NCBI RefSeq assembly: GCF_021155765.1
Contig: NC_060111.1
Span: forward strand, 7,563,981-7,627,980
Direction of reading: 5' to 3'
DNA length: 64,000 nucleotides
Origin: Diprion similis
Lineage: Eukaryota > Arthropoda > Insecta > Hymenoptera > Diprionidae
The position numbers and the translations under genes are program-made. Shown here piece after piece: positions 1,109-64,000 of the stretch. Each line of letters begins with the position of its first letter. Position 1 is the first letter of the stretch. Below the pieces are notes generated by a model, which was not told where the DNA came from, did not search any database, and saw nothing but the letters and a program-made list of their open reading frames with translations.

Positions 1109-1129
1109 TACACACACACACACACACAG
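1109..1129. repeat. (CA)n microsatellite
   Basis: About ten CA dinucleotides. Confidence 0.85.
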
Positions 1130-29862: not shown

Positions 29863-29934
29863 ATTTTTTTTGTTCTATTGATCTACGTTTTCGACTTATT
29901 CCACCTTTAAAAATGTCAAGTCTTAAGTTCGACA

Positions 29935-32300: not shown

Positions 32301-32789
32301 TATTTTCTGTATCAGAATAATTATGCGAGAGTAATCGATTGCGCACAATCCGGATACGCTGTTGGCAAGGAATCACGAGTTAGAGCAAAACCGAAAGATG
32401 TTCTTCGTGACTCCGTTGCTGTTGTCATATGCTCATTTTCATGGCTTTTCTGCATCCCTGGGTATCAAATAAGAATTATGAGTAACATGCTATCGATTCA
32501 CGGACAATAGACTTTTCGGCGAGAAGAAATCCAAGGCTAATCCCATTTGGATTGGAGTGCTGCAATGAATTCTTTCAGGCACTCTTCTGACAGAATTTTG
32601 GGAGAGAAATCGACTGAGCGCAGTCCAAATGCGCTGCGAGCAACGCCTGTGAAGTTGAAGCCGAAAAACTGCAGATTTTCGTCGTCATTTCTCTGCTGCT
32701 GGTCCTACGCTATTTCTCATGTGTTTTCTGAGTTTCTGGGCGTCATATTAGTCTGAAAAGCGTAATACCAATCGATTCCCGGACAAAAG
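32301..32789. repeat. Two decayed edge monomers of the 304-bp satellite
   Basis: The segment ~32301-32520 aligns to the satellite consensus (ATGCGAGAGTAATCGATTGC, then GGATACGCTGTTGGCAA, then CTATCGATTCACGGACAATA) but with many substitutions. The next unit to ~32789 is closer to consensus and lacks about 29 nt around the GGTGAAAATTTCGACGACTT segment. The GCGAGAG landmark lies at 32325, 32600 (as GGGAGAG) and 32904, so register is preserved apart from that deletion. This marks the true left boundary of the array. Confidence 0.85.
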
Positions 32790-35700
32790 ATTTTTCGGCC
32801 AAAAAAAATCCAAGGCTAACCCCTTTGGATTTTTGGTCAAAATTTCGACGACTTTGAAAAGTGCTGCAATTAATTCTTTAGAACACTATTCCGACGTAAT
32901 TTTGCGAGAGAAATCGATTGATCGCAGTCCCAATGCGCTGCGAGCAACACCTGTAACGTTACAGCCGAAAAACTGAAGATTTTCATCGTCATTTCTGTGC
33001 TGCTGGTCCTACGCTATTTCTCATGTGTTTTCTGAGTTCCTGAGCGTCGAATTAGTCTGAAAAGCGTAATACCAATCGATTCCCGGACAAAAGATTTTTC
33101 GGCCGAAGAAAATCCAAGGCTAACCCCTTTGGATTTTTGGTGAAAATTTCGACGACTTTGAAAAGTGCTGCAATTGATTCTTTAGAACACTATTCCGACG
33201 TAATTTGGCGAGAGAAATCGATTGATCGCAGTCCCAATGCGCTGCGAGCAACACCTGTAAAGTTACAGCCAAAAAACTGAAGATTTTCATCGTCATTTCT
33301 CTGCTGCTGGTCCTACGCTATTTCTCATGTGTTTTCTGAGTTCCTGGGCGTCGAATTAGTCTGAAAAGCGTCATACGAATCGATTCCCGAACAAAAGATT
33401 TTTCGGCCAAAAAAAATCCAAGGCTAACCCCTTTGGATTTTTGGTGAAAATTTCGACGACTTTGAAAATTGCTGCAATTAATTCTTTGGAACACTATTCC
33501 GACGTAATTTTGCGAGAGAAATCGATTGATCGCAGTCCCAATGCGCTGCGGGCAACACCTGTAAAGTTACAGCCGAAAATCTGAAGATTTTCATCGTCAT
33601 TTCTCTGCTGCTGGTCCTACGCTATTTCTCATGTGTTTTCTGAGTTCCTGGGCGTCGGATTAGTCTGAAAAGCGTAATACCAATCGATTCCCGGACAAAA
33701 GATTTTTCGGCCGAAGAAAATCCAAGGCTAACCCCTTTGGATTTTTGGTGAAAATTTCGACGACTTTGAAAATAGCTGCAATTAATTCTTTAGAACACTA
33801 TTCCGACGTAATGTTGCGAGAGAAATCGATTGATCGCAGTCCCAATGCGCTGCGAGCAACACCTGTAACGTTACAGCCGAAAAACTGAAGATTTTCATCG
33901 TCATTTCTGTGCTGCTGGTCATACGCTATTTCTCATGTGTTTTTTGAGTTCCTGGGCGTCGAATTAGTCTAAAAAGCGTCATACTAATCGATTCCCGGAC
34001 AAAAGATTTTCCGGCTAAAAAAAATCCAAGGCTAACCCCTTTGGATTTTTGGTGAAAATTTCGACGACTTTGAAAAGTGCTGCAATTAATTCTTTAGAAC
34101 ACTATTCCGACGTAATTTTGCGTGAGAAATCGATTGATCGCAGTCCCAATGCGCTGCGAGCAACACCTGTAAAGTTACCGCCGAAAAACTGAAGATTTCC
34201 ATCGTCATTTCTCTGCTGCTGGTCCTACGCTATTTCTCATGTGTTTTCTGAGTTCCTGGGCGTCGAATTAGTCTGAAAAGCGTCATACTAATCGATTCCC
34301 GGACAAAAGATTTTTCGGCCAAAAAAAATCCAAGGCTAACCCCTTTGGATTTTTGGTCAAAATTTCGACGACTTTGAAAAGTGCTGCAATTAATTCTTTA
34401 GAACACTATTCCGACGTAATTTTGCTAGAGAAATCGATTGATCGCAGTCCCAATGCGCTGCGAGCAACACCTGTAAAGTTACAGCCGAAAAACTGAAGAT
34501 TTTTATCGTCATTTCTCTGCTGCTGGTCCTACGCTATTTCTCATGTGTTTTCTGAGTTCCTGAGCGTCGAATTAGTCTGAAAAGCGTAATACCAATCGAT
34601 TCCCGGACAAAAGATTTTTCGGCCGAAGAAAATCCAAGGCTAACCCCTTTGGATTTTTGGTGAAAATTTCGACGACTTTGAAAAGTGCTGCAATAAATTC
34701 TTTAGAACACTATTCCGACGTAATTTTGCGAGAGAAATCGATTGATCGCAGTCCCAATGCGCTGCGAGCAACACCTGTAAAGTTACAGCCAAAAAACTGA
34801 AGATTTTCATCGTCATTTCTCTGCTGCTGGTCCTACGCTATTTCTCATGTGTTTTCTGAGTTCCTGGGCGTCGAATTAGTCTGAAAAGCGTCATACAAAT
34901 CGATTCCCGGACAAAAGATTTTTCGGCCAAAAAAAATCCAGGGCTAACCCCTTTGGATTTTTGGTCAAAATTTCGACGACTTTGAAAAGTGCTGCAATTA
35001 ATTCTTTGGAACACTATTCCGACGTAATTTTGCTAGAGAAATCGATTGATCGCAGTCCCAATGCGCTGCGAGCAACACCTGTAAAGTTACAGCCGAAAAA
35101 CTGAAGATTTTCATCGTCATTTCTCTGCTGCTGGTCCTACGCTATTTCTCATGTGTTTTCTGAGTTCCTGGGCGTCGGATTAGTCTGAAAAGCGTAATAC
35201 CAATCGATTCCCAGACAAAAGATTTTTCGGCCGAAGAAAATCCAAGGCTAACCCCTTTGGATTTTTGGTGAAAATTTCGACGACTTTGAAAAGTGCTGCA
35301 ATTAATTCTTTAGAACACTATTCCGACGTAATTTTGCGAGAGAAATCGATTGATCGCAGTCCCAATGCGCTGCGAGCAACACCTGTAACGTTACAGCCGA
35401 AAAACTGAAGATTTTCATCGTCATTTCTGTGCTGCTGGTCCTACGCTATTTCTCATGTGTTTTCTGAGTTCCTGGGCGTCGAATTAGTCTAAAAAGCGTC
35501 ATACCAATCGATTCCCGGACGAAAGATTTTTCGGCTAAAAAAAATCCAAGGCTAACCCCTTTGGATTTTTGGTGAAAATTTCGACGACTTTGAAAAGTGC
35601 TGCAATTAATTCTTTAGAACACTATTCCGACGTAATTTTGCGAGAAAAATCGATTGATCGCAGTCCCAATGCGCTGCGAGCAACACCTGTAAAGTTACAG

Positions 35701-38700
35701 CCGAAAAACTGAAGATTTTCATCGTCATTTCTCTGCTGCTGGTCCTACGCTATTTCTCATGTGTTTTCTGAGATCCTGGGCGTCGAATTAGTCTAAAAAG
35801 CGTCATACCAATCGATTCCCGGACAAAAGATTTTTCGGCTAAAAAAAATCCAAGGCTAACCCCTTTGGATTTTTGGTGAAAATTTCGACGACTTTGAAAA
35901 TTGCTGCAATTAATTCTTTGGAACACTATTCCGACGTAATTTTGCGAGAGAAATCGATTGATCGCAGTCCCAATGCGCTGCGAGCAACACCTGTAAAGTT
36001 ACAGCCGAAAATCTGAAGATTTTCATCGTCATTTCTCTGCTGCTGGTCCTACGCTATTTCTCATGTGTTTTCTGAGTTCCTGGGCGTCGGATTAGTCTGA
36101 AAAGCGTAATACCAATCGATTCCCGGACAAAAGATTTTTCGGCCGAAGAAAATCCAAGGCTAACCCCTTTGGATTTTTGGTGAAAATTTCGACGACTTTG
36201 AAAATAGCTGCAATTAATTCTTTAGAACACTATTCCGACGTAATGTTGCGAGAGAAATCGATTGATCGCAGTCCCAATGCGCTGCGAGCAACACCTGTAA
36301 CGTTACAGCCGAAAAACTGAAGATTTTCATCGTCATTTCTGTGCTGCTGGTCCTACGCTATTTCTCATGTGTTTTTTGAGTTCCTGGGCGTCGAATTAGT
36401 CTAAAAAGCGTCATACTAATCGATTCCCGGACAAAAGATTTTTCGGCTAAAAAAAATCCAAGGCTAACCCCTTTGGATTTTTGGTGAAAATTTCGACGAC
36501 TTTGAAAAGTGCTGCAATTAATTCTTTAGAACACTATTCCGACGTAATTTTGCTAGAGAAATCGATTGATCGCAGTCCCAATGCGCTGCGAGCAACACCT
36601 GTGAAGTTACAGCCGAAAAACTGAAGATTTTCATCGTCATTTCTGTGCTGCTGGTCCTACGCTATTTCTCATGTGTTTTCTGAGTTCCTGGGCGTCGAAT
36701 TAGTCTAAAAAGCGTCATACCAATCGATTCCCGGACAAAAGATTTTTCGGCTAAAAAAAATCCAAGGCTAACCCCTTTGGATTTTTGGTGAAAATTTCGA
36801 CGACTTTGAAAAGTGCTGCAATTAATTCTTTAGAACACTATTCCGACGTAATTTTGCGAGAGAAATCGATTGATCGCAGTCCCAATGCGCTGCGAGCAAC
36901 ACCTGTAAAGTTACAGCCGAAAAACTGAAGATTTTCATCGTCATTTCTGTGCTGCTGGTCCTACGCTATTTCTCATGTGTTTTCTGAGATCCTGGGCGTC
37001 GAATTAGTCTAAAAAGCGTCATACCAATCGATTCCCGGACAAAAGATTTTTCGGCTAAAAAAAATCCGAGGCTAACCCCTTTGGATTTTTGGTGAAAATT
37101 TCGACGACTTTGAAAAGTGCTGCAATTAATTCTTTAGAACACTATTCCGACGTAATTTTGCGAGAAAAATCGATTGATCGCAGTCCCAATGCGCTGCGAG
37201 CAACACCTGTAAAGTTACAGCCGAAAAACTGAAGATTTTCATCGTCATTTCTCTGCTGCTGGTCCTACGCTATTTCTCATGTGTTTTCTGAGTTCCTAAG
37301 CGTCGAATTAGTCTGAAAAGCGTAATACCAATCGATTTCCGGACAAAAGATTTTTCGGCCGAAGAAAATCCAAGGCTAACCCCTTTGGATTTTTGGTGAA
37401 AATTTCGAGGACTTTGAAATGTGCTGCAATTAATTCTTGAGAACACTATTCCGACGTAATTTTGCGAGAGAAATCGATTGATCGCAGTCCCAATGCGCTG
37501 CGAGCAACACCTGTAACGTTACAGCCGAAAAACTGAAGATTTTCATCGTCATTTCTGTGCTGCTGGTCCTACGCTATTTCTCATGTGTTTTCCGAGTTCC
37601 TGGGCGTCGAATTAGTCTAAAAAGCAACATACTAATCGATTCCCGGACAAAAGATTTTTCGGCCAAAAAAAATCCAAGGCTAACCCCTTTGGATTTTTGG
37701 TCAAAATTTCGACGACTTTGAAAAGTGCTGCAATTAATTCTTTAGAACACTATTCCGACGTAATTTTGCTAGAGAAATCGATTGATCGCAGTCCCAATGC
37801 GCTGCGAGCAACACCTGTAAAGTTACAGCCGAAAAACTGAAGATTTTCATCGTCATTTCTCTGCTGCTGGTCCTACGCTATTTCTCATGTGTTTTCTGAG
37901 TTCCTGGGCGTCGAATTAGTCTAAAAAGCGTCATACCAATCGATTCCCGGACAAAAGATTTTTCGGCTAAAAAAAATCCACGGCTAACCCCTTTGGATTT
38001 TTGGTGAAAATTTCGACGACTTTGAAAAGTGCTGCAATTAATTCTTTAGAACACTATTCCGCCGTAATTTTGCGAGAGAAATCGATTGATCGCAGTCCCA
38101 ATGCGCTGCGAGCAACACCTGTAAAGTTACAGCCGAAAAACTGAAGATTTTCATCGTCATTTCTCTGCTGCTGGTCCTACGCTATTTCTCATGTGTTTTC
38201 CGAGTTCCTGGGCGTCGAATTAGTCTAAAAAGCGTCATACCAATCGATTTCTGGACAAAAGATTTCTCGGCTAAAAAAAATCCAAGGCTAACCCCTTTGG
38301 ATTTTTGGTGAAAATTTCGACGACTTTGAAAAGTGCTGCAATTAATTCTTTAGAACACTATTCCGACGTAATTTTGCGAGAGAAATCGATTGATCGCAGT
38401 CCCAATGCGCTGCGAGCAACACCTGTAAAGTTACAGCCGGAAAACTGAAGATTTTCATCGTCATTTCTCTGCTGCTGGTCCTACGCTATTTCTCATGTGT
38501 TTTCTGAGTTCCTGGGCGTCGAATTAGTCTGAAAAGCGTCATACTAATCGATTCCCGGACAAAAGATTTTTCGGCCAAAAAAAATCCAAGGCTAACCCCT
38601 TTGGATTTTTGGTGAAAATTTCGACGACTTTGAAAAGTGCTGCAATTAATTCTTTAGAACACTATTCCGACGTAATTTTGCTAGAGAAATCGATTGATCG

Positions 38701-41700
38701 CAGTCCCAATGCGCTGCGAGCAACACCTGTATAGTTACAGCCGAAAAACTGAAGATTTTCATTGTCATTTCTCTGCTGCTGGTCCTACGCTATTTCTCAT
38801 GTGTTTTCTGAGTTCCTGGGCGTCGAATTAGTCTAAAAAGCGTCATACCAATCGATTCCCGGACAAAAGATTTTTCGGCTAAAAAAAATCCACGGCTAAC
38901 CCCTTTGGATTTTTGGTCAAAATTTCGACGACTTTGAAAAGTGCTGCAATTAATTCTTCAGAACACTATTCCGCCGTAATTTTGCGAGAGAAATCGATTG
39001 ATCGCAGTCCCAATGCGCTGCGAGCAACACCTGTAAAGTTACAGCCGAAAAACTGAAGATTTTCATCGTCATTTCTCTGCTGCTGGTCCTACGCTATTTC
39101 TAATGTGTTTTCTGAGTTCCTGGGCGTCGAATTAGTCTGAAAAGCGTAATACCAATCGATTCCCGGACAAAAGATTTTTCGGCCGAAGAAAATCTAAGGC
39201 TAACCCCTTTGGATTTTTGGTGAAAATTTCGACGACTTTGAAAAGTGCTGCAATTAATTCTTTAGAACACTATTCCGCCGTAATTTTGCGAGAGAAATCG
39301 ATTGATCGCAGTCCCAATGCGCTGCGAGCAACACCTGTAAAGCTACAGCCGAAAAACTGAAGATTTTCATCGTCATTTCTGTGCTGCTGGTCCTACGCTA
39401 TTTCTCATGTGTTTTCTGAGTTCCTGGGCGTCGAATTAGTCTGAAAAGCGTCATACCAATCGATTCCCGGACAAAAGATTTTTCGGCTAAAGAAAATCCA
39501 AGGCTAACCCCTTTGGATTTTTGGTCAAAATTTCGACGACTTTGAAAAGTGCTGCAATTAATTCTTTAGAACACTATTCCGACGTAATTTTGCTAGAGAA
39601 ATCGATTGATCGCGGTCCCAATGCGCTGCGAGCAACACCTGTAAAGTTACAGCCGAAAAACTGAAGATTTTCATCGTCATTTCTCTGCTGCTGGTCCTAC
39701 GCTATTTCTCATGTGTTTTCTGAGTTCCTGGGCGTCGAATTAGTCTGAAAAGCGTAATACCTATCGATTCCAGGACAAAAGATTTTTCGGCCGAAGAAAA
39801 TTCAAGGCTAACCCCTTTGGATTTTTGGTGAAAATTTCGACGACTTTGAAAAGTGCTGCAATTAATTCTTTAGAACACTATTCCGACGTAATTTTGCGAG
39901 AGAAATCGATTGATCGCAGTCCCAATGCGCTGCGAGCAACACCTGTAACGTTACAGCCGAAAAACTGAAGATTTTCATCGTCATTTCTGTGCTGCTGGTC
40001 CTACGCTATTTCTCATGTGTTTTCTGAGTTCCTGGGCGTCGAATTAGTCTGAAAAGCGTGATACCAATCGATTCCCGGACAAAAGATTTTTCGGCCGAAG
40101 AAAATTCAAGGCTAACCCCTTTGGATTTTTGGTGAAAATTTCGAAGACTTTGAAAAGTGCTGCAATTAATTCTTTAGAACACTATTCCGACGTAATTTTG
40201 CGAGAGAAATCAATTGATCGCAGTCCCAATGCGCTGCGAGCAACACCTGTAAAGTTACCGCCGAAAAACTGAAGATTTCCATCGTCATTTCTCTGCTGCT
40301 GGTCCTACGCTATTTCTCATGTGTTTTCTGAGTTCCTGGGCGTCGAATTAGTCTGAAAAGCGTCATACTAATCGATTCCCGGACAAAAGATTTTTCGGCC
40401 AAAAAAAATCCAGGGCTAACCCCTTTGGATTTTTGGTCAAAATTTCGACGACTTTGAAAAGTGCTGCAATTAATTCTTTAGAACACTATTCCGACGTAAT
40501 TTTGCTAGAGAAATCGATTGATCGCGGTCCCAATGCGCTGCGAGCAACACCTGTAAAGTTACAGCCGAAAAACTGAAGATTTTCATCGTCATTTCTCTGC
40601 TGCTGGTCCTACGCTATTTCTCATGTGTTTTCTGAGTTCCTGGGCGTCGAATTAGTCTGAAAAGCGTAATACCTATCGATTCCCGGACAAAAGATTTTTC
40701 GGCCGAAGAAAATTCAAGGCTAACCCCTTTGGATTTTTGGTGAAAATTTCGACGACTTTGAAAAGTGCTGCAATTAATTCTTTAGAACACTATTCCGACG
40801 TAATTTTGCGAGAGAAATCGATTGATCGCAGTCCCAATGCGCTGCGAGCAACACCTGTACCGTTACAGCCGAAAAACTGAAGATTTTCATCGTCATTTCT
40901 GTGCTGCTGGTCCTACGCCATTTCTCATGTGTTTTCTGAGTTCCTGGCCGTCGAATTAGTCTAAAAAGCGTCATACCAATCGATTCCCGGACGAAAGATT
41001 TTTCGGCTAAAAATAATCCAAGGCTAACCCCTTTGGATTTTTGGTGAAGATTTCGACGACTTTGAAAAGTGCTGCAATTAATTCTTTAGAACACTATTCC
41101 GACGTAATTTTGCGAGAGAAATCGATTGATCGCAGTCCCAATGCGCTGCGAGCAACACCTGTAAAGTTACAGCCGAAAAACTGAAGATTTCCATCGTCAT
41201 TTCTCTGCTGCTGGTCCTACGCTATTTCTCATGTGTTTTCTGAGTTCCTGGGCGTCGAATTAGTCTGAAAAGCGTCATACTAATCGATTCCCGGACAAAA
41301 GATTTTTCGGCCGAAGAAAATCCAAGGCTAACCCCTTTGGATTTTTGGTGAAAATTTCGACGACTTTGAAAAGTGCTGCAATTAATTCTTTAGAACACTA
41401 TTCCGACGTAATTTTGCGAGAGAAATCGATTGATCGCAGTCCCAATGCGCTGCGAGCAACACCTGTAAAGTTACAGCCGAAAAACTGAAGATTTTCATCG
41501 TCATTTCTGTGCTGCTGGTCCTACGCTATTTCTCATGTGTTTTCTGAGTTCCTGGGCGTCGAATTAGTCTAAAAAGCGTCATACCAATCGATTCCCGGAC
41601 AAAAGATTTTTCGGCTAAAAAAAATCCAAGGCTAACCCCTTTGGATTTTTGGTGAAAATTTCGACGACTTCGAAAAGTGCTGCAATTAATTCTTTAGAAC

Positions 41701-44700
41701 ACTATTCCGACGTAATTTTGCGAGAGAAATCGATTGATCGCAGTCCCAATGCGCTGCGAGCAACACCTGTAAAGTTACAGCCAAAAAACTGAAGATTTTC
41801 ATCGTCATTTCTCTGCTGCTGGTCCTACGCTATTTCTCATGTGTTTTCTGAGTTCCTGGGCGTCGAATTAGTCTAAAAAGCGTCATACTAATCGATTCCC
41901 GGACAAAAGATTTTTTGGCCAAAAAAAATCCAAGGCTAACCCCTTTGGATTTTTGGTCAAAATTTCGACGACTTTGAAAAGTGCTGCAATTAATTCTTTA
42001 GAACACTATTCCGACGTAATTTTGCGAGAGAAATCGATTGATCGCAGTCCCAATGCGCTGCGAGCAACACCTGTAACGTTACAGCCGAAAAACTGAAGAT
42101 TTTCATCGTCATTTTTGTGCTGCTGGTCCTACGCTATTTCTCATGTGTTTTCTGAGTTCCTGGGCGTCGAATTAGTCTGAAAAGCGTAATACCAATCGAT
42201 TCCCGGACAAAAGATTTTTCGGCCGAAGAAAATTCAAGGCTAACCCCTTTGGATTTTTGGTGAAAATTTCGACGACTTTGAAAAGTGCTGCAATTAATTC
42301 TTTAGAACACTATTCCGACGTAATTTTGCGAGAGAAATCGATTGATCGCAGTCCCAATGCGCTGCGAGCAACACCTGTAACGTTACAGCCGAAAAACTGA
42401 AGATTTTCATCGTCATTTCTGTGCTGCTGGTCCTACGCTATTTCTCATGTGTTTTCTGAGTTCCTGGGCGTCGAATTAGTCTAAAAAGCGTCATACCAAT
42501 CGATTCCCGGACAAAAGATTTTTCGGCTAAAAAAAATCCAAGGCTAACCCCTTTGGATTTTTGGTGAAAATTTCGACGACTTTGAAAAGTGCTGCAATTA
42601 ATTCTTTAGAACACTATTCCGACGTAATTTTGCGAGAGAAATCGATTGATCGCAGTCCCAATGCGCTGCGAGCAACACCTGTAAAGTTACAGCCGAAAAA
42701 CTGAAGATTTTCATCGTCATTTCTCTGCTGCTGGTCCTACGCTATTTCTCATGTGTTTTCTGAGTTCCTGGGCGTCGAATTAGTCTGAAAAGCGTCATAC
42801 TAATCGATTCCCGGACAAAAGATTTTTCGGCCAAAAAAAATCCAAGGCTAACCCCTTTGGATTTTTGGTCAAAATTTCGACGACTTTGAAAAGTGCTGCA
42901 ATTAATTCTTTAGAACACTATTCCGACGTAATTTTGCGAGAGAAATCGATTGATCGCAGTCCCAATGCGCTGCGAGCAACACCTGTAAAGTTACAGCCGA
43001 AAAACTGAAGATTTTCATTGTCATTTCTCTGCTGCTGGTCCTACGCTATTTCTCATGTGTTTTCTGAGTTCCTGGGCGTCGAATTAGTCTGAAAAGCGTC
43101 ATACTAATCGATTCCCGGACAAAAGATTTTTCGGCCAGAAAAAATCCAAGGCTAACCCCTTCGGATTTTTGGTGAAAATTTCGACGACTTTGAAAAGTGC
43201 TGCAATTAATTCTTTAGAACACTATTCCGACGTAATTTTGCTAGAGAAATCGATTGATCGCAGTCCCAATGCGCTGCGAGCAACACCTGTAAAGTTACAG
43301 CCGAAAAACTGAAGATTTTCATCGTCATTTCTCTGCTGCTGGTCCTACGCTATTTCTCATGTGTTTTCTGAGTTCCTGGGCGTCGAATTAGTCTGAAAAG
43401 CGTAATACCAATCGATTCCCGTACAAAAGATTTTTCGGCCGAAGAAAATCCAAGGCTAACCCCTTTGGATTTTTGGTGAAAATTTCGACGACTTTGAAAA
43501 GTGCTGCAATTAATTCTTTAGAACACTATTCGGACGTAATTTTGCGAGAGAAATCGATTGATCGCAGTCCCAATGCGCTGCGAGCAACACCTGTAACGTT
43601 ACAGCCGAAAAACTGAAGATTTTCATCGTCATTTCTGTGCTGCTGGTCCTACGCTATTTCTCATGTGTTTTCTGAGTTCCTGGGCGTCGAATTAGTCTAA
43701 AAAGCGTCATACCAATCGATTTCCGGACAAAAGAATTTTCGGCTAAAAAAAATCCAAGGCTAACCCCTTTGGATTTTTGGTGAAAATTTCGACGACTTTG
43801 AAAAGTGCTGCAATTAATTCTTTAGAACACTATTCCGCCGTAATTTTGCGAGAGAAATCGATTGATCGCAGTCCCAATGCGCTGCGAGCCACACCTATAA
43901 AGTTACAGCCGAAAAACTGAAGATTTTCATCGTCATTTCTCTGCTGCTGGTCCTACGCTATTTCTCATGTGTTTTCTGAGTTCCTGGGCGTCGAATTAGT
44001 CTAAAAAGCGTCATACTAATCGATTCCCGGACAAAAGATTTTTTGGCCAAAAAAAATCCAAGGCTAACCCCTTTGGATTTTTGGTCAAAATTTCGACGAC
44101 TTTGAAAAGTGCTGCAATTAATTCTTTAGAACACTATTCCGCCGTAATTTTGCGAGAGAAATCGATTGATCGCAGTCCCAATGCGCTGCGAGCAACACCT
44201 GTAAAGTTACAGCCGAAAAACTGAAGATTTTCATCGTCATTTCTCTGCTGCTGGTCCTACGCTATTTCTAATGTGTTTTCTGAGTTCCTGGGCGTCGAAT
44301 TAGTCTGATAAGCGTAATACCAATCGATTCCCGGACAAAAGATTTTTCGGCCGAAGAAAATCCAAGGCTAACCCCTTTGGATTTTTGGTGAAAATTTCGA
44401 CGACTTTGAAAAGTGCTGCAATTAATTCTTTAGAACACTATTCCGCCGTACTTTTGCGAGAGAAATCGATTGATCGCAGTCCCAATGCGCTGCGAGCAAC
44501 ACCTGTAAAGTTACCGCCGAAAAACTGAAGATTTCCATCGTCATTTCTCTGCTGCTGGTCCTACGCTATTTCTCATGTGTTTTTTGAGTTCCTGGGCGTC
44601 GAATTAGTCTGAGAAGCGTCATACTAATCGATTCCCGGACAAAAGATTTTTCGGCCAAAAAAAATCCAAGGCTAACCCCTTTGGATTTTTGGTGAAAATT

Positions 44701-47700
44701 TCGACGACTTTGAAAAGTGCTGCAATTAATTCTTTAGAACACTATTCCGACGTAATTTTGCGAGAGAAATCGATTGATCGCAGTCCCAATGCGCTGCGAG
44801 CAACACCTGTAAAGTTACCGCCGAAAAACTGAAGATTTCCATCGTCATTTCTCTGCTGCTGGTCCTACGCTATTTCTCATGTGTTTTTTGAGTTCCTGGG
44901 CGTCGAATTAGTCTGAAAAGCGTCATACTAATCGATTCCCGGACAAAAGATTTTTCGGCCAAAAAAAATCCAAGGCTAACCCCTTTGGATTTTTGGTCAA
45001 AATTTCGACGACTTTGAAAAGTGCTGCAATTAATTCTTTAGAACACTATTCCGACGTAATTTTGCTAGAGAAATCGATTGATCGCAGTCCCAATGCGCTG
45101 CGAGCAACACCTGTAAAGTTACAGCCGAAAAACTGGAGATTTTCATCGTCATTTCTCTGCTGCTGGTCCTACGCTATTTCTCATGTGTTTCCAGAGTTCC
45201 TGGGCGTCGAATTAGTCTGAAAAGCGTAATACCTATCGATTCCCGGACAAAAGATTTTCCGGCCGAAGAAAATTCGAGGCTAACCCCTTTGGATTTTTGG
45301 TGAAAATTTCGACGACTTTGAAAAGTGCTGCAATTAATTCTTTAGAACACTATTCCGACGTAATTTTGCGAGAGCAATCGATTGATCGCAGTCCCAATGC
45401 GCTGCGAGCAACACCTGTAAAGTTACCGCCGAAAAACTGAAGATTTCCATCGTCATTTCTCTGCTGCTGGTCCTACGCTATTTCTCATGTGTTTTTTGAG
45501 TTCCTGGGCGTCGAATTAGTCTGAAAAGCGTCATACTAATCGATTCCCGGACAAAAGATTTTTCGGCCAAAAAAAATCCAAGGCTAACCCCTTTGGATTT
45601 TTGTCAAAATTTCGACGACTTTGAAAAGTGCTGCAATTAATTCTTTAGAACACTATTCCGACGTAATTTTGCTAGAGAAATCGATTGATCGCAGTCCCAA
45701 TGCGCTGCGAGCAACACCTGTAAAGTTACAGCCGAAAAACTGAAGATTTTCATCGTCATTTCTCTGCTGCTGGTCCTACGCTATTTCTCATGTGTTTTCT
45801 GAGTTCCTGGGCGTCGAATTAGTCTGAAAAGCGTAATACCTATCGATTCCCGGACAAAAGATTTTTCGGCCGAAGAAAATTGAAGGCTAACCCCTTTGGA
45901 TTTTTGGTGAAAATTTCGACGACTTTGAAAAGTGCTGCAATTAATTCTTTAGAACACTATTCCGACGTAATTTTGCGAGAGAAATCGATTGATCGCAGTC
46001 CCAATGCGCTGCGAGCAACACCTGTAACGTTACAGCCGAAAAACTGGAGATTTTCATCGTCATTTCTGTGCTGCTGGTCCTACGCTATTTCTCATGTGTT
46101 TTCTGAGTTCCTGGGCGTCGAATTAGTCTAAAAAGCGTCATACCAATCGATTCCCGGACAAAAGATTTTTCGGCTAAAAAAAACCCAAGGCTAACCCCTT
46201 TGGATTTTTGGTGAAAATTTCGACGACTTCGGAAAGTGCTGCAATTAATTCTTTAGAACACTATTCCGACGTAATTTTGCGAGAGAAATCGATTGATCGC
46301 AGTCCCAATGCGCTGCGAGCAACACCTGTAAAGTTACAGCCAAAAAACTGAAGATTTTCATCGTCATTTTTCTGCTGCTGGTCCTACGCTATTTCTCATG
46401 TGTTTTCTGAGTTCCTGGGCGTCGAATTAGTCTAGAAAGCGTCATACTAATCGATTCCCGGACAAAAGATTTTTTGGCCAAAAAAAATCCAAGGCTAACC
46501 CCTTTGGATTTTTGGTCAAAATTTCGACGACTTTGAAAAGTGCTGCAATTAATTCTTTAGAACACTATTCCGACGTAATTTTGCGAGAGAAATCGATTGA
46601 TCGCAGTCCCAATGCGCTGCGAGCAACACCTGTAACGTTACAGCCGAAAAACTGAAGATTTTCATCGTCATTTCTGTGCTGCTGGTCCTACGCTATTTCT
46701 CATGTGTTTTCTGAGTTCCTGGGCGTCGAATTAGTCTGAAAAGCGTAATACCAATCGATTCCCGGACAAAAGATTTTTCGGCCGAAGAAAATTCAAGGCT
46801 AACCCCTTTGGATTTTTGGTGAAAATTTCGACGACTTTGAAAAGTGCTGCAATTAATTCTTTAGAACACTATTCCGACGTAATTTTGCGAGAGAAATCGA
46901 TTGATCGCAGTCCCAATGCGCTGCGAGCAACACCTGTAACGTTACAGCCGAAAAACTGAAGATTTTCATCGTCATTTCTGTGCTGCTGGTCCTACGCTAT
47001 TTCTCATGTGTTTTCTGAGTTCCTGGGCGTCGAATTAGTCTAAAAAGCGTCATACCAATCGATTCCCGGACAAAAGATTTTTCGGCTAAAAAAAATCCAA
47101 GGCTAACCCCTTTGGATTTTTGGTGAAAATTTCGACGACTTTGAAAAGTGCTGCAATTAATTCTTTAGAACACTATTCCGACGTAATTTTGCGAGAGAAA
47201 TCGATTGATCGCAGTCCCAATGCGCTGCGAGCAACACCTGTAAAGTTACAGCCGAAAAACTGAAGATTTTCATCGTCATTTCTCTGCTGCTGGTCCTACG
47301 CTATTTCTCATGTGTTTTCTGAGTTCCTGGGCGTCGAATTAGTCTGAAAAGCGTAATACCTATCGATTCCCGGACAAAAGATTTTTCGGCCGAAGAAAAT
47401 TCAAGGCTAACCCCTTTGGATTTTTGGTGAAAATTTCGACGACTTTGAAAAGTGCTGCAATTAATTCTTTAGAACACTATTCCGACGTAATTTTGCGAGA
47501 GAAATCGATTGATCGCAGTCCCAATGCGCTGCGAGCAACACCTGTAAAGTTACAGCCGAAAAACTGAAGATTTCCATCGTCATTTCTCTGCTGCTGGTCC
47601 TACGCTATTTCTCATGTGTTTTCTGAGTTCCTGGGCGTCGAATTAGTCTGAAAAGCGTCATACTAATCGATTCCCGGACAAAAGATTTTTCGGCCAAAAA

Positions 47701-50700
47701 AAATCCAAGGCTAACCCCTTTGGATTTTTGGTCAAAATTTCGACGACTTTGAAAAGTGCTGCAATTAATTCTTTAGAACACTATTCCGACGTAATTTTGC
47801 TAGAGAAATCGATTGATCGCAGTCCCAATGCGCTGCGAGCAACACCTGTAAAGTTACAGCCGAAAAACTGAAGATTTTCATCGTCATTTCTCTGCTGCTG
47901 GTCCTACGCTATTTCTCATGTGTTTTCTGAGTTCCTGGGCGTCGAATTAGTCTCAAAAGCGTCATACCAATCGATTCCTGGACGAAAGATTTTTCGCCAA
48001 AAAAAAATCCAAGGTTAACCCCTTTGGATTTTTGGTGAAAATTTCGACGACTTTGAAAAGTGCTGCAATTAATTCTTTAGAACACTATTCCGACGTAATT
48101 TTGCGAGAGAAATCGATTGATCGCAGTCCCGATGCGCTGCGAGCAACACCTGTAAAGTTACAGCCGAAAAACTGAAGATTTTCATCGTCATTTCTCTGCT
48201 GCAAGTCCTACGCTATTTCTCATGTGTTTTCTAAGTTCCTGGGCGTCGAATTAGTCTGAAAAGCGTAATACCAATCGATTCCCGGACAAAAGATTTTTCG
48301 GCCAAAAAAAATCCAAGGCTAACCCCTTTGGATTTTTGGTAAAAATTTCGACGACTTTGAAAAGTGCTGCAATTAATTCTTTAGAACACTATTCCGACGT
48401 AATTTTGCGAGAGAAATCGATTGATCGCAGTCCCAATGCGCCGCGAGCAACACCTGTAAAGTTACAGCCGAAAAACTGAAGATTTTCATCGTCATTTCTC
48501 TGCTGCTGGTCCTACGCTATTTCTCATGTGTTTTCTGAGTTCCTGGGCGTCAAATTAGTCTAAAAAGCGTCATACCAATCGATTCCCGGATAAAAGATTT
48601 TTCGGCCAAAAAAAAATCCAAGGCTAACCCCTTTGGATTTTTGGTGAAAATTTCGACGACTTTGAAAAGTGCTGCAATTAATTCTTTAGAACACTATTCC
48701 GACGTAATTTTGCGAGAGAAATCGATTGATCGCAGTCCCAATGCGCTGCGAGCAACACCTGTAAAGTTACAGCCAAAAAACTGAAGATTTTCATCGTCAT
48801 TTCTCTGCTGCTGGTCCTACGCTATTTCTCATGTGTTTTCTGAGTTCCTGGGCGTCAAATTAGTCTAAAAAGCGTCATACCAATCGATTCCCGGATAAAA
48901 GATTTTTCGGCCAAAAAAAAATCCAAGGCTAACCCCTTTGGATTTTTGGTGAAAATTTCGACGACTTTGAAAAGTGCTGCAATTAATTCTTTAGAACACT
49001 ATTCCGACGTAATTTTGCGAGAGAAATCGATTGATCGCAGTCCCAATGCGCTGCGAGCAACACCTGTAAAGTTACAGCCAAAAAACTGAAGATTTTCATC
49101 GTCATTTCTCTGCTGCTGGTCCTACGCTATTTCTCATGTGTTTTCTGAGTTCCTGGGCGTCGAATTAGTCTAAAAAGCGTCATACCAATCGATTCCCGGA
49201 CAAAAGATTTTTCGGCTAAAAAAAATCCAAGGCTAACCCCTTTGGATTTTTGGTGAAAATTTCGACGACTTTGAAAAGTGCTGCAATTAATTCTTTAGAA
49301 CACTATTCCGACGTAATTTTGCGAGAGAAATCGATTGATCGCAGTCCCAATGCGCTGCGAGCAACACCTGTAAAGTTACAGCCGAAAAACTGAAGATTTT
49401 CATCGTCATTTCTCTGCTGCTGGTCCTACGCTATTTCTCATGTGTTTTCTGAGTTCCTGGGCGTCGAATTAGTCTGAAAAGCGTCATACTAATCGATTCC
49501 CGGACAAAAGATTTTTCGGCCAAAAAAAATCCAAGGCTAACCCCTTTGGATTTTTGGTGAAAATTTCGACGACTTTGAAAAGTGCTGCAATTAATTCTTT
49601 AGAACACTATTCCGACGTAATTTTGCGAGAGAAATCGATTGATCGCAGTCCCAATGCGCTGCGAGCAACACCTGTAAAGTTACAGCCAAAAAACTGAAGA
49701 TTTTCATCGTCATTTCTCTGCTGCTGGTCCTACGCTATTTCTCATGTGTTTTCTGAGTTCCTGGGCGTCGAATTAGTCTAAAAAGCGTCATACCAATCGA
49801 TTCCCGGACAAAAGATTTTTCGGCTAAAAAAAATCCAAGGCTAACCCCTTTGGATTTTTGGTGAAAATTTCGACGACTTTGAAAAGTGCTGCAATTAATT
49901 CTTTAGAACACTATTCCGACGTAATTTTGCGAGAGAAATCGATTGATCGCAGTCCCAATGCGCTGCGAGCAACACCTGTAAAGTTACCGCCGAAAAACTG
50001 AAGATTTCCATCGTCATTTCTCTGCTGCTGGTCCTACGCTATTTCTCATGTGTTTTTTGAGTTCCTGGGCGTCGAATTAGTCTAGAAAGCGTCATACTAA
50101 TCGATTCCCGGACAAAAGATTTTTTGGCCAAAAAAAATCCAAGGCTAACCCCTTTGGATTTTTGGTCAAAATTTCGACGACTTTGAAAAGTGCTGCAATT
50201 AATTCTTTAGAACACTATTCCGACGTAATTTTGCGAGAGAAATCGATTGATCGCAGTCCCAATGCGCTGCGAGCAACACCTGTAACGTTACAGCCGAAAA
50301 ACTGAAGATTTTCATCGTCATTTCTGTGCTGCTGGTCCTACGCTATTTCTCATGTGTTTTCTGAGTTCCTGGGCGTCGAATTAGTCTAAAAAGCGTCATA
50401 CCAATCGATTCCCGGACAAAAGATTTTTCGGCTAAAAAAAATCCAAGGCTAACCCCTTTGGATTTTTGGTGAAAATTTCGACGACTTTGAAAAGTGCTGC
50501 AATTAATTCTTTAGAACACTATTCCGACGTAATTTTGCGAGAGAAATCGATTGATCGCAGTCCCAATGCGCTGCGAGCAACACCTGTAAAGTTACAGCCG
50601 AAAAACTGAAGATTTTCATCGTCATTTCTGTGCTGCTGGTCCTACGCTATTTCTCATGTGTTTTCTGAGTTCCTGGGCGTCGAATTAGTCTGAAAAGCGT

Positions 50701-51385
50701 AATACCAATCGATTCCCGGACAAAAGATTTTTCGGCCGAAGAAAATTCAAGGCTAACCCCTTTGGATTTTTGGTGAAAATTTCGACGACTTTGAAAAGTG
50801 CTGCAATTAATTCTTTAGAACACTATTCCGACGTAATTTTGCGAGAGAAATCGATTGATCGCAGTCCCAATGCGCTGCGAGCAACACCTGTAACGTTACA
50901 GCCGAAAAACTGAAGATTTTCATCGTCATTTCTGTGCTGCTGGTCCTACGCTATTTCTCATGTGTTTTCTGAGTTCCTGGGCGTCGAATTAGTCTAAAAA
51001 GCGTCATACCAATCGATTCCCGGACAAAAGATTTTTCGGCTAAAAAAAATCCAAGGCTAACCCCTTTGGATTTTTGGTGAAAATTTCGACGACTTTGAAA
51101 AGTGCTGCAATTAATTCTTTAGAACACTATTCCGACGTAATTTTGCGAGAGAAATCGATTGATCGCAGTCCCAATGCGCTGCGAGCAACACCTGTAAAGT
51201 TACAGCCGAAAAACTGAAGATTTTCATCGTCATTTCTCTGCTGCTGGTCCTACGCTATTTCTCATGTGTTTTCTGAGTTCCTGGGCGTCGAATTAGTCTG
51301 AAAAGCGTCATACTAATCGATTCCCGGACAAAAGATTTTTCGGCCAAAAAAAATCCAAGGCTAACCCCTTTGGATTTTTGGTCAA

Positions 51386-56249: not shown

Positions 56250-59200
56250 AATTTCGACGACTTTGAAAAGTGCTGCAATTAATTCTTTAGAACACTATTC
56301 CGACGTAATTTTGCGAGAGAAATCGATTGATCGCAGTCCCAATGCGCTGCGAGCAACACCTGTAAAGTTACAGCCGAAAAACTGAAGATTTTCATTGTCA
56401 TTTCTCTGCTGCTGGTCCTACGCTATTTCTCATGTGTTTTCTGAGTTCCTGGGCGTCGAATTAGTCTGAAAAGCGTCATACTAATCGATTCCCGGACAAA
56501 AGATTTTTCGGCCAAAAAAAATCCAAGGCTAACCCCTTCGGATTTTTGGTGAAAATTTCGACGACTTTGAAAAGTGCTGCAATTAATTCTTTAGAACACT
56601 ATTCCGACGTAATTTTGCTAGAGAAATCGATTGATCGCAGTCCCAATGCGCTGCGAGCAACACCTGTAAAGTTACAGCCGAAAAACTGAAGATTTTCATC
56701 GTCATTTCTCTGCTGCTGGTCCTACGCTATTTCTCATGTGTTTTCTGAGTTCCTGGGCGTCGAATTAGTCTGAAAAGCGTAATACCAATCGATTCCCGTA
56801 CAAAAGATTTTTCGGCCGAAGAAAATCCAAGGCTAACCCCTTTGGATTTTTGGTGAAAATTTCGACGACTTTGAAAAGTGCTGCAATTAATTCTTTAGAA
56901 CACTATTCCGACGTAATTTTGCGAGAGAAATCGATTGATCGCAGTCCCAATGCGCCGCGAGCAACACCTGTAAAGTTACAGCCAAAAAACTGAAGATTTT
57001 CATCGTCATTTCTCTGCTGCTGGTCCTACGCTATTTCTCATGTGTTTTCTGAGTTCCTGGGCGTCGAATTAGTCTAAAAAGCGTCATACCAATCGATTCC
57101 CGGACAAAAGATTTTTCGGCTAAAAAAAATCCAAGGCTAACCCCTTTGGATTTTTGGTGAAAATTTCGACGACTTTGAAAAGTGCTGCAATTAATTCTTT
57201 AGAACACTATTCCGACGTAATTTTGCGAGAGAAATCGATTGATCGCAGTCCCAATGCGCTGCGAGCAACACCTGTAAAGTTACCGCCGAAAAACTGAAGA
57301 TTTCCATCGTCATTTCTCTGCTGCTGGTCCTACGCTATTTCTCATGTGTTTTTTGAGTTCCTGGGCGTCGAATTAGTCTGAAAAGCGTCATACTAATCGA
57401 TTCCCGGACAAAAGATTTTTCGGCCAAAAAAAATCCAAGGCTAACCCCTTTGGATTTTTGGTCAAAATTTCGACGACTTTGAAAAGTGCTGCAATTAATT
57501 CTTTAGAACACTATTCCGACGTAATTTTGCTAGAGAAATCGATTGATCGCAGTCCCAATGCGCTGCGAGCAACACCTGTAAAGTTACAGCCGAAAAACTG
57601 AAGATTTTCATCGTCATTTCTCTGCTGCTGGTCCTACGCTATTTCTCATGTGTTTTCTGAGTTCCTGGGCGTCGAATTAGTCTGAAAAGCGTAATACCTA
57701 TCGATTCCCGGACAAAAGATTTTTCGGCCGAAGAAAATTCAAGGCTAACCCCTTTGGATTTTTGGTGAAAATTTCGACGACTTTGAAAAGTGCTGCAATT
57801 AATTCTTTAGAACACTATTCCGACGTAATTTTGCGAGAGAAATCGATTGATCGCAGTCCCAATGCGCTGCGAGCAACACCTGTAACGTTACAGCCGAAAA
57901 ACTGGAGATTTTCATCGTCATTTCTGTGCTGCTGGTCCTACGCTATTTCTCATGTGTTTTCTGAGTTCCTGGGCGTCGAATTAGTCTAAAAAGCGTCATA
58001 CCAATCGATTCCCGGACAAAAGATTTTTCGGCTAAAAAAAACCCAAGGCTAACCCCTTTGGATTTTTGGTGAAAATTTCGACGACTTCGGAAAGTGCTGC
58101 AATTAATTCTTTAGAACACTATTCCGACGTAATTTTGCGAGAGAAATCGATTGATCGCAGTCCCAATGCGCTGCGAGCAACACCTGTAAAGTTACAGCCA
58201 AAAAACTGAAGATTTTCATCGTCATTTTTCTGCTGCTGGTCCTACGCTATTTCTCATGTGTTTTCTGAGTTCCTGGGCGTCGAATTAGTCTAGAAAGCGT
58301 CATACTAATCGATTCCCGGACAAAAGATTTTTTGGCCAAAAAAAATCCAAGGCTAACCCCTTTGGATTTTTGGTCAAAATTTCGACGACTTTGAAAAGTG
58401 CTGCAATTAATTCTTTAGAACACTATTCCGACGTAATTTTGCGAGAGAAATCGATTGATCGCAGTCCCAATGCGCTGCGAGCAACACCTGTAACGTTACA
58501 GCCGAAAAACTGAAGATTTTCATCGTCATTTCTGTGCTGCTGGTCCTACGCTATTTCTCATGTGTTTTCTGAGTTCCTGGGCGTCGAATTAGTCTGAAAA
58601 GCGTCATACTAATCGATTCCCGGACAAAAGATTTTTCGGCCAAAAAAAATCCAAGGCTAACCCCTTTGGATTTTTGGTCAAAATTTCGACGACTTTGAAA
58701 AGTGCTGCAATTAATTCTTTAGAACACTATTCCGACGTAATTTTGCGAGAGAAATCGATTGATCGCAGTCCCAATGCGCTGCGAGCAACACCTGTAAAGT
58801 TACAGCCGAAAAACTGAAGATTTTCATTGTCATTTCTCTGCTGCTGGTCCTACGCTATTTCTCATGTGTTTTCTGAGTTCCTGGGCGTCGAATTAGTCTG
58901 AAAAGCGTCATACTAATCGATTCCCGGACAAAAGATTTTTCGGCCAAAAAAAATCCAAGGCTAACCCCTTCGGATTTTTGGTGAAAATTTCGACGACTTT
59001 GAAAAGTGCTGCAATTAATTCTTTAGAACACTATTCCGACGTAATTTTGCTAGAGAAATCGATTGATCGCAGTCCCAATGCGCTGCGAGCAACACCTGTA
59101 AAGTTACAGCCGAAAAACTGAAGATTTTCATCGTCATTTCTCTGCTGCTGGTCCTACGCTATTTCTCATGTGTTTTCTGAGTTCCTGGGCGTCGAATTAG

Positions 59201-60505
59201 TCTGAAAAGCGTAATACCAATCGATTCCCGTACAAAAGATTTTTCGGCCGAAGAAAATCCAAGGCTAACCCCTTTGGATTTTTGGTGAAAATTTCGACGA
59301 CTTTGAAAAGTGCTGCAATTAATTCTTTAGAACACTATTCCGACGTAATTTTGCGAGAGAAATCGATTGATCGCAGTCCCAATGCGCTGCGAGCAACACC
59401 TGTAAAGTTACAGCCAAAAAACTGAAGATTTTCATCGTCATTTCTCTGCTGCTGGTCCTACGCTATTTCTCATGTGTTTTCTGAGTTCCTGGGCGTCGAA
59501 TTAGTCTAAAAAGCGTCATACCAATCGATTCCCGGACAAAAGATTTTTCGGCTAAAAAAAATCCAAGGCTAACCCCTTTGGATTTTTGGTGAAAATTTCG
59601 ACGACTTTGAAAAGTGCTGCAATTAATTCTTTAGAACACTATTCCGACGTAATTTTGCGAGAGAAATCGATTGATCGCAGTCCCAATGCGCTGCGAGCAA
59701 CACCTGTAAAGTTACCGCCGAAAAACTGAAGATTTCCATCGTCATTTCTCTGCTGCTGGTCCTACGCTATTTCTCATGTGTTTTTTGAGTTCCTGGGCGT
59801 CGAATTAGTCTAGAAAGCGTCATACTAATCGATTCCCGGACAAAAGATTTTTTGGCCAAAAAAAATCCAAGGCTAACCCCTTTGGATTTTTGGTCAAAAT
59901 TTCGACGACTTTGAAAAGTGCTGCAATTAATTCTTTAGAACACTATTCCGACGTAATTTTGCGAGAGAAATCGATTGATCGCAGTCCCAATGCGCTGCGA
60001 GCAACACCTGTAACGTTACAGCCGAAAAACTGAAGATTTTCATCGTCATTTCTGTGCTGCTGGTCCTACGCTATTTCTCATGTGTTTTCTGAGTTCCTGG
60101 GCGTCGAATTAGTCTAAAAAGCGTCATACCAATCGATTCCCGGACAAAAGATTTTTCGGCTAAAAAAAATCCAAGGCTAACCCCTTTGGATTTTTGGTGA
60201 AAATTTCGACGACTTTGAAAAGTGCTGCAATTAATTCTTTAGAACACTATTCCGACGTAATTTTGCGAGAGAAATCGATTGATCGCAGTCCCAATGCGCT
60301 GCGAGCAACACCTGTAAAGTTACAGCCGAAAAACTGAAGATTTTCATCGTCATTTCTCTGCTGCTGGTCCTACGCTATTTCTCATGTGTTTTCTGAGTTC
60401 CTGGGCGTCGAATTAGTCTGAAAAGCGTCATACTAATCGATTCCCGGACAAAAGATTTTTCGGCCAAAAAAAATCCAAGGCTAACCCCTTTGGATTTTTG
60501 GTCAA
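56250..60505. repeat. Satellite higher-order repeat unit, 14-monomer version (4,256 bp)
   Basis: The first twelve monomers match the unit starting at 51386 variant for variant. Two monomers corresponding to 55034 and 55338 are absent, and the final two match 55642 and 55946. The next unit starts at 60506 and keeps the order for five monomers before diverging at about 62026. Confidence 0.8.
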
Positions 60506-63500
60506 AATTTCGACGACTTTGAAAAGTGCTGCAATTAATTCTTTAGAACACTATTCCGACGTAATTTTGCGAGAGAAATCGATTGATCGCAGTCCCAATG
60601 CGCTGCGAGCAACACCTGTAAAGTTACAGCCGAAAAACTGAAGATTTTCATTGTCATTTCTCTGCTGCTGGTCCTACGCTATTTCTCATGTGTTTTTTGA
60701 GTTCCTGGGCGTCGAATTAGTCTGAAAAGCGTCATACTAATCGATTCCCGGACAAAAGATTTTTCGGCCAAAAAAAATCCAAGGCTAACCCCTTCGGATT
60801 TTTGGTGAAAATTTCGACGACTTTGAAAAGTGCTGCAATTAATTCTTTAGAACACTATTCCGACGTAATTTTGCTAGAGAAATCGATTGATCGCAGTCCC
60901 AATGCGCTGCGAGCAACACCTGTAAAGTTACAGCCGAAAAACTGAAGATTTTCATCGTCATTTCTCTGCTGCTGGTCCTACGCTATTTCTCATGTGTTTT
61001 CTGAGTTCCTGGGCGTCGAATTAGTCTGAAAAGCGTAATACCAATCGATTCCCGTACAAAAGATTTTTCGGCCGAAGAAAATCCAAGGCTAACCCCTTTG
61101 GATTTTTGGTGAAAATTTCGACGACTTTGAAAAGTGCTGCAATTAATTCTTTAGAACACTATTCCGACGTAATTTTGCGAGAGAAATCGATTGATCGCAG
61201 TCCCAATGCGCCGCGAGCAACACCTGTAAAGTTACAGCCAAAAAACTGAAGATTTTCATCGTCATTTCTCTGCTGCTGGTCCTACGCTATTTCTCATGTG
61301 TTTTCTGAGTTCCTGGGCGTCGAATTAGTCTAAAAAGCGTCATACCAATCGATTCCCGGACAAAAGATTTTTCGGCTAAAAAAAATCCAAGGCTAACCCC
61401 TTTGGATTTTTGGTGAAAATTTCGACGACTTTGAAAAGTGCTGCAATTAATTCTTTAGAACACTATTCCGACGTAATTTTGCGAGAGAAATCGATTGATC
61501 GCAGTCCCAATGCGCTGCGAGCAACACCTGTAAAGTTACCGCCGAAAAACTGAAGATTTCCATCGTCATTTCTCTGCTGCTGGTCCTACGCTATTTCTCA
61601 TGTGTTTTTTGAGTTCCTGGGCGTCGAATTAGTCTGAAAAGCGTCATACTAATCGATTCCCGGACAAAAGATTTTTCGGCCAAAAAAAATCCAAGGCTAA
61701 CCCCTTTGGATTTTTGGTCAAAATTTCGACGACTTTGAAAAGTGCTGCAATTAATTCTTTAGAACACTATTCCGACGTAATTTTGCTAGAGAAATCGATT
61801 GATCGCAGTCCCAATGCGCTGCGAGCAACACCTGTAAAGTTACAGCCGAAAAACTGAAGATTTTCATCGTCATTTCTCTGCTGCTGGTCCTACGCTATTT
61901 CTCATGTGTTTTCTGAGTTCCTGGGCGTCGAATTAGTCTGAAAAGCGTAATACCTATCGATTCCCGGACAAAAGATTTTTCGGCCGAAGAAAATTCAAGG
62001 CTAACCCCTTTGGATTTTTGGTGAAAATTTCGACGACTTTGAAAAGTGCTGCAATTAATTCTTTAGAACACTATTCCGACGTAATTTTGCGAGAGAAATC
62101 GATTGATCGCAGTCCCAATGCGCTGCGAGCAACACCTGTAAAGTTACAGCCGAAAAACTGAAGATTTCCATCGTCATTTCTCTGCTGCTGGTCCTACGCT
62201 ATTTCTCATGTGTTTTCTGAGTTCCTGGGCGTCGAATTAGTCTGAAAAGCGTAATACCTATCGATTCCCGGACAAAAGATTTTTCGGCCGAAGAAAATTC
62301 AAGGCTAACCCCTTTGGATTTTTGGTGAAAATTTCGACGACTTTGAAAAGTGCTGCAATTAATTCTTTAGAACACTATTCCGACGTAATTTTGCGAGAGA
62401 AATCGATTGATCGCAGTCCCAATGCGCTGCGAGCAACACCTGTAAAGTTACAGCCGAAAAACTGAAGATTTTCATCGTCATTTCTCTGCTGCTGGTCCTA
62501 CGCTATTTCTCATGTGTTTTCTGAGTTCCTGGGCGTCGAATTAGTCTGAAAAGCGTCATACTAATCGATTCCCGGACAAAAGATTGTTCGGCCAAAAAAA
62601 ATCCAAGGCTAACCCCTTTGGATTTTTGGTGAAAATTTCGACGACTTTGGAAAGTGCTGCAATTAATTCTTTAGAACACTATTCCGACGTAATTTTGCGA
62701 GAGAAATCGATTGATCGCAGTCCCAATGCGCCGCGAGCAACACCTGTAAAGTTACAGCCGAAAAACTGAAGATTTTCATCGTCATTTCTCTGCTGCTGGT
62801 CCTACGCTATTTCTCATGTGTTTTCTGAGTTCCTGGGCGTCGAATTAGTCTGAAAAGCGTCATACTAATCGATTCCCGGACAAAAGATTTTTCGGCCAAA
62901 AAAAATCCAAGGCTAACCCCTTTGGATTTTTGGTCAAAATTTCGACGACTTTGAAAAGTGCTGCAATTAATTCTTTAGAACACTATTCCGACGTAATTTT
63001 GCTAGAGAAATCGATTGATCGCAGTCCCAATGCGCTGCGAGCAACACCTGTAAAGTTACAGCCGAAAAACTGAAGATTTTCATCGTCATTTCTCTGCTGC
63101 TGGTCCTACGCTATTTCTCATGTGTTTTCTGAGTTCCTGGGCGTCGAATTAGTCTCAAAAGCGTCATACCAATCGATTCCTGGACGAAAGATTTTTCGCC
63201 AAAAAAAAATCCAAGGTTAACCCCTTTGGATTTTTGGTGAAAATTTCGACGACTTTGAAAAGTGCTGCAATTAATTCTTTAGAACACTATTCCGACGTAA
63301 TTTTGCGAGAGAAATCGATTGATCGCAGTCCCGATGCGCTGCGAGCAACACCTGTAAAGTTACAGCCGAAAAACTGAAGATTTTCATCGTCATTTCTCTG
63401 CTGCAAGTCCTACGCTATTTCTCATGTGTTTTCTGAGTTCCTGGGCGTCGAATTAGTCTGAAAAGCGTAATACCAATCGATTCCCGGACAAAAGATTTTT

Positions 63501-64000
63501 CGGCCAAAAAAAATCCAAGGCTAACCCCTTTGGATTTTTGGTAAAAATTTCGACGACTTTGAAAAGTGCTGCAATTAATTCTTTAGAACACTATTCCGAC
63601 GTAATTTTGCGAGAGAAATCGATTGATCGCAGTCCCAATGCGCCGCGAGCAACACCTGTAAAGTTACAGCCGAAAAACTGAAGATTTTCATCGTCATTTC
63701 TCTGCTGCTGGTCCTACGCTATTTCTCATGTGTTTTCTGAGTTCCTGGGCGTCAAATTAGTCTAAAAAGCGTCATACCAATCGATTCCCGGATAAAAGAT
63801 TTTTCGGCCAAAAAAAAATCCAAGGCTAACCCCTTTGGATTTTTGGTGAAAATTTCGACGACTTTGAAAAGTGCTGCAATTAATTCTTTAGAACACTATT
63901 CCGACGTAATTTTGCGAGAGAAATCGATTGATCGCAGTCCCAATGCGCTGCGAGCAACACCTGTAAAGTTACAGCCGAAAAACTGAAGATTTTCATCGTC

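Follow-up and report, generated by a model that had tools for sequence, protein, structure and literature searches.

Among the closest described counterparts of the repeat family reported here are the 1.688 satellite of Drosophila, which has a 359-bp monomer, and the dispersed satellites of Tribolium castaneum, reportedly a subject of Volaric et al. in 2024. Satellites of the T. castaneum TCAST families are described, in the part of PMC5844308 drawn on here, as lying in euchromatin and being dispersed preferentially as single repeats. The excerpts used of a review on satellites that are predominantly euchromatic (PMC10048060) place the Drosophila 1.688 satellite in both euchromatin and heterochromatin, describe tandem repeats of the Pacific oyster that lie mainly outside heterochromatin, and state that homogenisation is less efficient among distant arrays and at array ends.

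The window, that is, the whole 64,000-nucleotide stretch of Diprion similis DNA that was analysed (C7:7,563,981-7,627,980, on a contig of 11.06 Mb in an assembly of 269 Mb and 60 contigs), contains all but the last part of an array of 304-bp repeats, hereafter array A. Array A is very probably one array of an abundant satellite family that is dispersed through gene-bearing DNA and kept uniform by exchange mostly within arrays. Likened by description, the family resembles TCAST in occurring in gene-bearing DNA on many chromosomes, and differs from the single repeats of TCAST (PMC5844308, in the part cited) in that every family copy listed or fetched sits within or at the edge of an array. With Drosophila 1.688 it shares a monomer of similar size, apparently euchromatic arrays and less homogenisation between distant arrays and at their ends, and with the euchromatin-dominant satellites of the Pacific oyster, an unrelated organism, it shares, again by description, tandem repeats mainly outside heterochromatin (PMC10048060, in the excerpts cited). 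Judged by such descriptions and by the gene setting on C7, the 304-bp family appears to fit a known kind, the euchromatin-dispersed satellite. Its monomer length differs from that of 1.688, and we know of no sequence resemblance between the two.

Extent and register of the array

The main features of the array, in window coordinates, are as follows.

32318..32555, forward strand: degenerate left-edge satellite copy, its start at 32318 reached by both blastn and a profile search
32556..64000 and on to about 64,800 (C7:7,628,780), forward strand: homogeneous 304-bp monomer array (array A), from Tandem Repeats Finder, landmark spacings and identity
50711..60438, forward strand: a 16-monomer block present twice in tandem (2 x 4,864 bp), from lag analysis and pairwise comparison

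As a whole, array A comprises about 107 head-to-tail monomers over 32.5 kb, of which only the last 0.8 kb or so falls beyond the window. Tandem Repeats Finder reports 32556-64000 with a period of 304, 103.4 copies, 96% matches and 0% indels. Monomer spacing was read from a landmark, a 16-base word for which up to four mismatches were allowed. The window holds 104 landmarks, and 99 of the 103 spacings between them are exactly 304 bp; the remainder are one of 303 bp (45542-45845), two of 305 bp (at 48581 and 48886) and one of 279 bp that corresponds to the degenerate left edge, where the first landmark monomer is 25 bp short and 80% identical to the array consensus. A third 305-bp spacing, at 63783, is seen once the next landmark past the window is included. 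From 32774 to 63783 there are 102 clean spacings, which total 31,009 bp, against 31,008 bp for perfect spacing.

A 304-bp satellite with near-perfect spacing was the core of the original prediction, and both Tandem Repeats Finder and the landmark spacings bear it out; the 31,010 bp that it gave for 102 periods departs from the measured length only through the placement of the landmark relative to the last insertion. The span that it assigned to the array, 32301..64000, is right in outline and needs adjustment at both ends, as similarity begins at 32318 with divergent copies and is clean from 32556, and the array runs on to about 64,800. The one lost base and the three extra As that it named are found at their places by spacings and alignment columns alike, the columns putting the four indels at about 45604, 48608, 48913 and 63810. 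The three one-base insertions (48581, 48886 and 63783) share a single column next to an A-run of the monomer, and so reflect either one copied variant or recurrent slippage.

A unit of 304 bp is not divisible by three, and the stop-to-stop frames of 40000-42000, none longer than 103 aa, repeat along with the monomer. Monomer GC content is 41.8%, and the observed/expected ratio of CpG is 1.36, versus 1.24 and 1.11 in the flanking DNA. The repeats are those of a satellite, a non-coding unit arranged head to tail in long arrays.

Homogenisation within and between arrays

A second array on C7, array B, has 79 landmarks and lies 163 kb from array A in the opposite orientation. Copies are more alike within arrays than between them, with a mean pairwise identity of 96.7% within array A (106 monomers) and 94.6% within array B, compared with 88.8% between A and B. 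The consensus sequences of the two arrays show 23 differences and no difference in length. The consensus of array A is 97.1% identical to that of an array on C9 and 92.6% identical to that of its neighbour B, so that the compared arrays do not group by contig. Two long haplotypes are private to array A, the one array for which this was tested, with 10 of 10 and 12 of 12 exact genome copies located in it, and a sister haplotype has 608 copies, the 100 listed all being in one C3 array. Such greater likeness within arrays, together with private haplotypes, is the pattern of concerted evolution.

The two copies of the 16-monomer block have 10 mismatches in 4,864 bp, with about 4.3 kb of identical sequence, and a partial third copy of six monomers starts at about 60135. 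At lag 16, array A has a run of 14 monomers, none with more than one difference, and six-monomer runs occur at lags 14 and 30; in array B, a block of 17 monomers is duplicated. As regards higher-order repeats, identity is nearly flat against lag except at the duplicated blocks. In C9:6303136-6317819, equal-score matches lie 9,725 bp apart (6317420/6307695 and 6315597/6305872), a spacing that suggests a block duplication of about 32 monomers. Private haplotypes and a near-unchanged duplication of 16 monomers make unequal exchange inside the array well supported, and with the 17-monomer block of array B they uphold the strong homogenisation by unequal exchange that had been predicted.

It is probable that unequal exchange between misaligned sister chromatids or homologues, in addition to conversion, keeps each array uniform; the exchange steps could be as large as about 16 monomers, and exchange would act much more within than between arrays. 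Occasional transfer between chromosomes, through excised circles or ectopic exchange, may explain why array A is closer to the C9 array than to array B, as far as similarity can indicate.

A family dispersed through the genome

Three exact 21-mers of the monomer have 18,356, 12,319 and 26,952 copies in the genome, with none for each of the reversed controls, and monomer 21-mers are found on both strands in similar numbers. The family accordingly has at least 26,952 copies, equivalent to at least 8.2 Mb or 3% of the 269 Mb, a floor because that 21-mer is exact in only 76 of the approximately 107 copies of array A and 26 of the approximately 80 copies of array B. Among the matches listed, the family is present in both orientations on at least seven contigs (C1, C2, C3, C6, C7, C9 and C14), and the arrays seen range in size from about 4 kb (C2) to more than 40 kb (C3). 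Family clusters are located at 0.97, 1.18, 2.92 and 4.31 Mb of C1, and the arrays of C9, again in both orientations, lie between 3.73 and 6.40 Mb.

Two unit lengths, 304 and 312 bp, exist in the family. Some arrays on C1 are built of the 312-bp unit, which is approximately 19% different from the 304-bp unit with an 8-bp change in length, and one C1 array contains both. In this mixed array (C1:2921501-2930500), a 1.3-kb stretch at L033:5614-6926 interrupts a monomer and carries a short tandem tail at its end, an arrangement that looks like a retroelement insertion.

One 21-base monomer word was absent from GTDB contigs and IMG/VR, and a second was absent from IMG/VR, as expected for a eukaryotic repeat. 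Five monomer words were without a match in the literature text searched, and a literature search on '304 bp' satellites gave nothing relevant, the '304 bp' papers being irrelevant or of another kind.

Rarity of length changes

For the length of the unit, the near absence of drift that had been claimed is supported by a local control and by the coordinates listed for other arrays. The ratio of distinct substitutions to distinct indels is 112:2 in array A (105 of the 106 monomers, the first one, of 80% identity, having been dropped) and 157:4 in array B (edge copies outside the 79 landmarks omitted). The corresponding ratio of mismatches to gap openings is 474:48 in a control set from the same 264 kb, made up of 22 pairs of non-array repeats with minima of 80% identity and 120 bp; the pairs are not independent of each other. 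Relative to substitutions, indels are about 4.5 times rarer in the arrays than in nearby dispersed repeats, a shortage with a Fisher p of 8.5e-5 against all controls; the contrast is weaker when the controls are restricted to the six pairs with an identity of 88% or more (73:7, p = 0.012). Singletons, with 108 substitutions and 2 indels, are as depleted as shared variants, and hence low indel input or long-read consensus errors could account for part of the shortage without an exchange mechanism. According to the listed coordinates, the distances from 4308114 to 4338818 on C1 and from 10133775 to 10173903 on C3 equal 101 x 304 and 132 x 304 bp, respectively, with zero net drift, and two 312-bp arrays on C1 are one base off over 31 and 47 units.

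If exchange operates within arrays as proposed, a monomer of deviant length would pair out of register with its neighbours, most indels would be lost or would fail to spread, and a rigid 304-bp spacing would follow. It is conceivable, if rather doubtful, that monomer length is actively policed, in that recombination between copies or heteroduplex repair would remove arising indels and tolerate substitutions, with 304 and 312 bp as two stable registers. Arrays of tens of kilobases on different chromosomes would thereby hold a single register through more than 100 units.

That the constant length is due to selection for a register of nucleosomes or bound proteins, and not to exchange, seems unlikely. 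Such selection would agree with the depletion of indels in the arrays; however, the genome also has a 312-bp type, which shares one C1 array with the 304-bp type, no 10-bp periodicity is apparent, and what looks like a conserved 31-bp box is probably an effect of ascertainment. The strength of the 9.8-10.8-bp periodicity of AT dinucleotides was equalled in 91, 49, 94 and 66 of 200 shuffles. The suggestion that the monomer approximates two nucleosome cores in length also finds no support, as the two halves of the monomer lack similarity, this periodicity is missing and a unit of 312 bp is in use as well. Shuffles rarely give a peak like that found at 11.5-11.7 bp (0 to 13 of 500); the peak was nevertheless discarded, since roughly 7 in 106 left-flank windows match the height of array A's peak at some period. 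As for the box, six array consensus sequences share an invariant run of 31 bp, and 7 of 2000 permutations gave one as long. It was rejected as a sign of constraint, as the C1 arrays had been found via a 21-mer inside the run and a 21-mer elsewhere in the monomer is commoner (26,952 vs 18,356).

Gene setting and sequence motifs

To the left of array A, the window includes two gene features.

25079..29874, reverse strand: exons of a TTC21-like (IFT139) gene, with Pfam ARM_TT21 families on 27715-29874 and 25079-25717 (E down to 2.5e-76)
31306..31377, forward strand: tRNA-Trp gene (CCA) some 0.9 kb to the left of the array, from ARAGORN and Rfam RF00005 (67.6 bits)

The left flank also has a sugar-transporter-like exon; it contains 25 open reading frames of at least 110 aa, four of which were scanned with Pfam and three matched. 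Between arrays A and B, Pfam recognised MFS transporter, carbonic anhydrase, THAP and P-type transposase domains, five matches being obtained from the eight open reading frames submitted out of nine of at least 170 aa. The transposase sequences, at L011:4818-6362, are fragments of the P-element type (Tnp_P_element, TNP-like RNase H and GTP-binding domains). Two near-palindromes, L018:1023-1648 (about 626 bp, 83% self-complementary) and L024:8134-8580 (about 447 bp, 78%), are possibly foldback elements. With arrays on at least seven contigs and gene-like frames beside and between them (the gene neighbourhood having been read on C7 only), the family has the distribution of a euchromatin-dispersed satellite.

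It is very unlikely, given this setting, that the family is centromeric or pericentromeric, with CenH3 nucleosomes held on it at a defined phase. Its homogeneity and copy number are high, and its monomer falls within the range of 100-400 bp that is common at centromeres according to the portion of PMC5844345 used here. However, the genes beside and between the arrays, including the carbonic anhydrase and MFS transporter frames on C7, argue against a single centromere, as do several far-apart arrays per contig (on C1 and C9, and the opposite pair on C7), if the chromosome is monocentric and its centromere blocks are present in the assembly. Nor was a CENP-B box, a 17-bp motif, detected in four consensus sequences, the best candidates having 6-7 of 9 core positions.

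A Pol III B box was found in neither of two consensus sequences. In the search for a ribozyme (hammerhead or other self-cleaving fold), only the tRNA reaches the Rfam gathering threshold within the window, and 40001-40700 gave one chance match (E 1.6) to an unrelated leader. A hairpin was considered because the folding of one monomer outdoes that of its shuffles (z -2.5, with 1 of 100 equalling it), and was rejected, as inspection by eye shows the longest dyad interrupted both in array B and in the 312-bp units. No sequence-specific function is indicated, and the default is a neutral or selfish repeat.

Array edges and flanks

Array A stops in mid-monomer at its right edge, against approximately 0.8 kb with a retrotransposon-like frame. 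Beyond it, at 65615-65754 (L009:1615-1754), a short piece of the monomer persists in decayed form and in the same orientation (E 1.7e-11; the reversed sequence is without a match). The frames L009:1388-1624 and 986-1387 (minus strand), between the array edge and this piece, resemble by eye the RNase H end of a non-LTR retrotransposon.

Of the nine edges read first, four fall at positions 78-82 of a circular monomer model, namely the edges of array B at C7:7791567 and 7815914, L031:2392 and L032:1582, so that two arrays have their start and their end at almost one point of the monomer. A preferred break point at these positions was left unconfirmed by five further edges from C9, C1 and C2, which lie at model positions 89, 142, 28, 34 and 285; three more stretches fetched for array edges had no edge in them. 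All five of the further edges end in decayed copies, as is expected if exchange is less effective at array ends.

The dispersal of arrays in both orientations, with transposon remnants nearby, might suggest that a transposable element (Helitron, MITE or other) contains the repeats internally and has spread them. This origin is nevertheless highly improbable, as a comparison of nine flanks and an internal insert, sampled from five C7 and C1 arrays, showed no mutual similarity at E 1e-4, and the lack of a common flank indicates that no single element carries the sampled arrays. The points within the monomer at which arrays end also vary, and typical element-borne repeats are far shorter than arrays of tens to more than 100 monomers. 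That the exact repetition is partly an assembly artefact of collapsed or wrongly expanded copies is extremely improbable: long stretches identical in two tandem copies, as in the 16-monomer block, are where assemblers err, but 73 of 105 monomers of array A are distinct, the array carries private variants, and the 304-bp spacing recurs in other arrays.

Significance

Taken alone, array A is ordinary and is notable mainly for the rarity of length change among its copies, the measurable shortage of indels being the one uncommon trait of an otherwise ordinary satellite array. As a dispersed satellite, the family makes up at least 3% of the genome in assembled arrays, and those examined have unique flanks, so that exchange, array birth and the fate of indels are measurable from sequence. 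The rigidity of its length, if upheld with a larger control set, would be relevant to the question of why satellite units stay constant.
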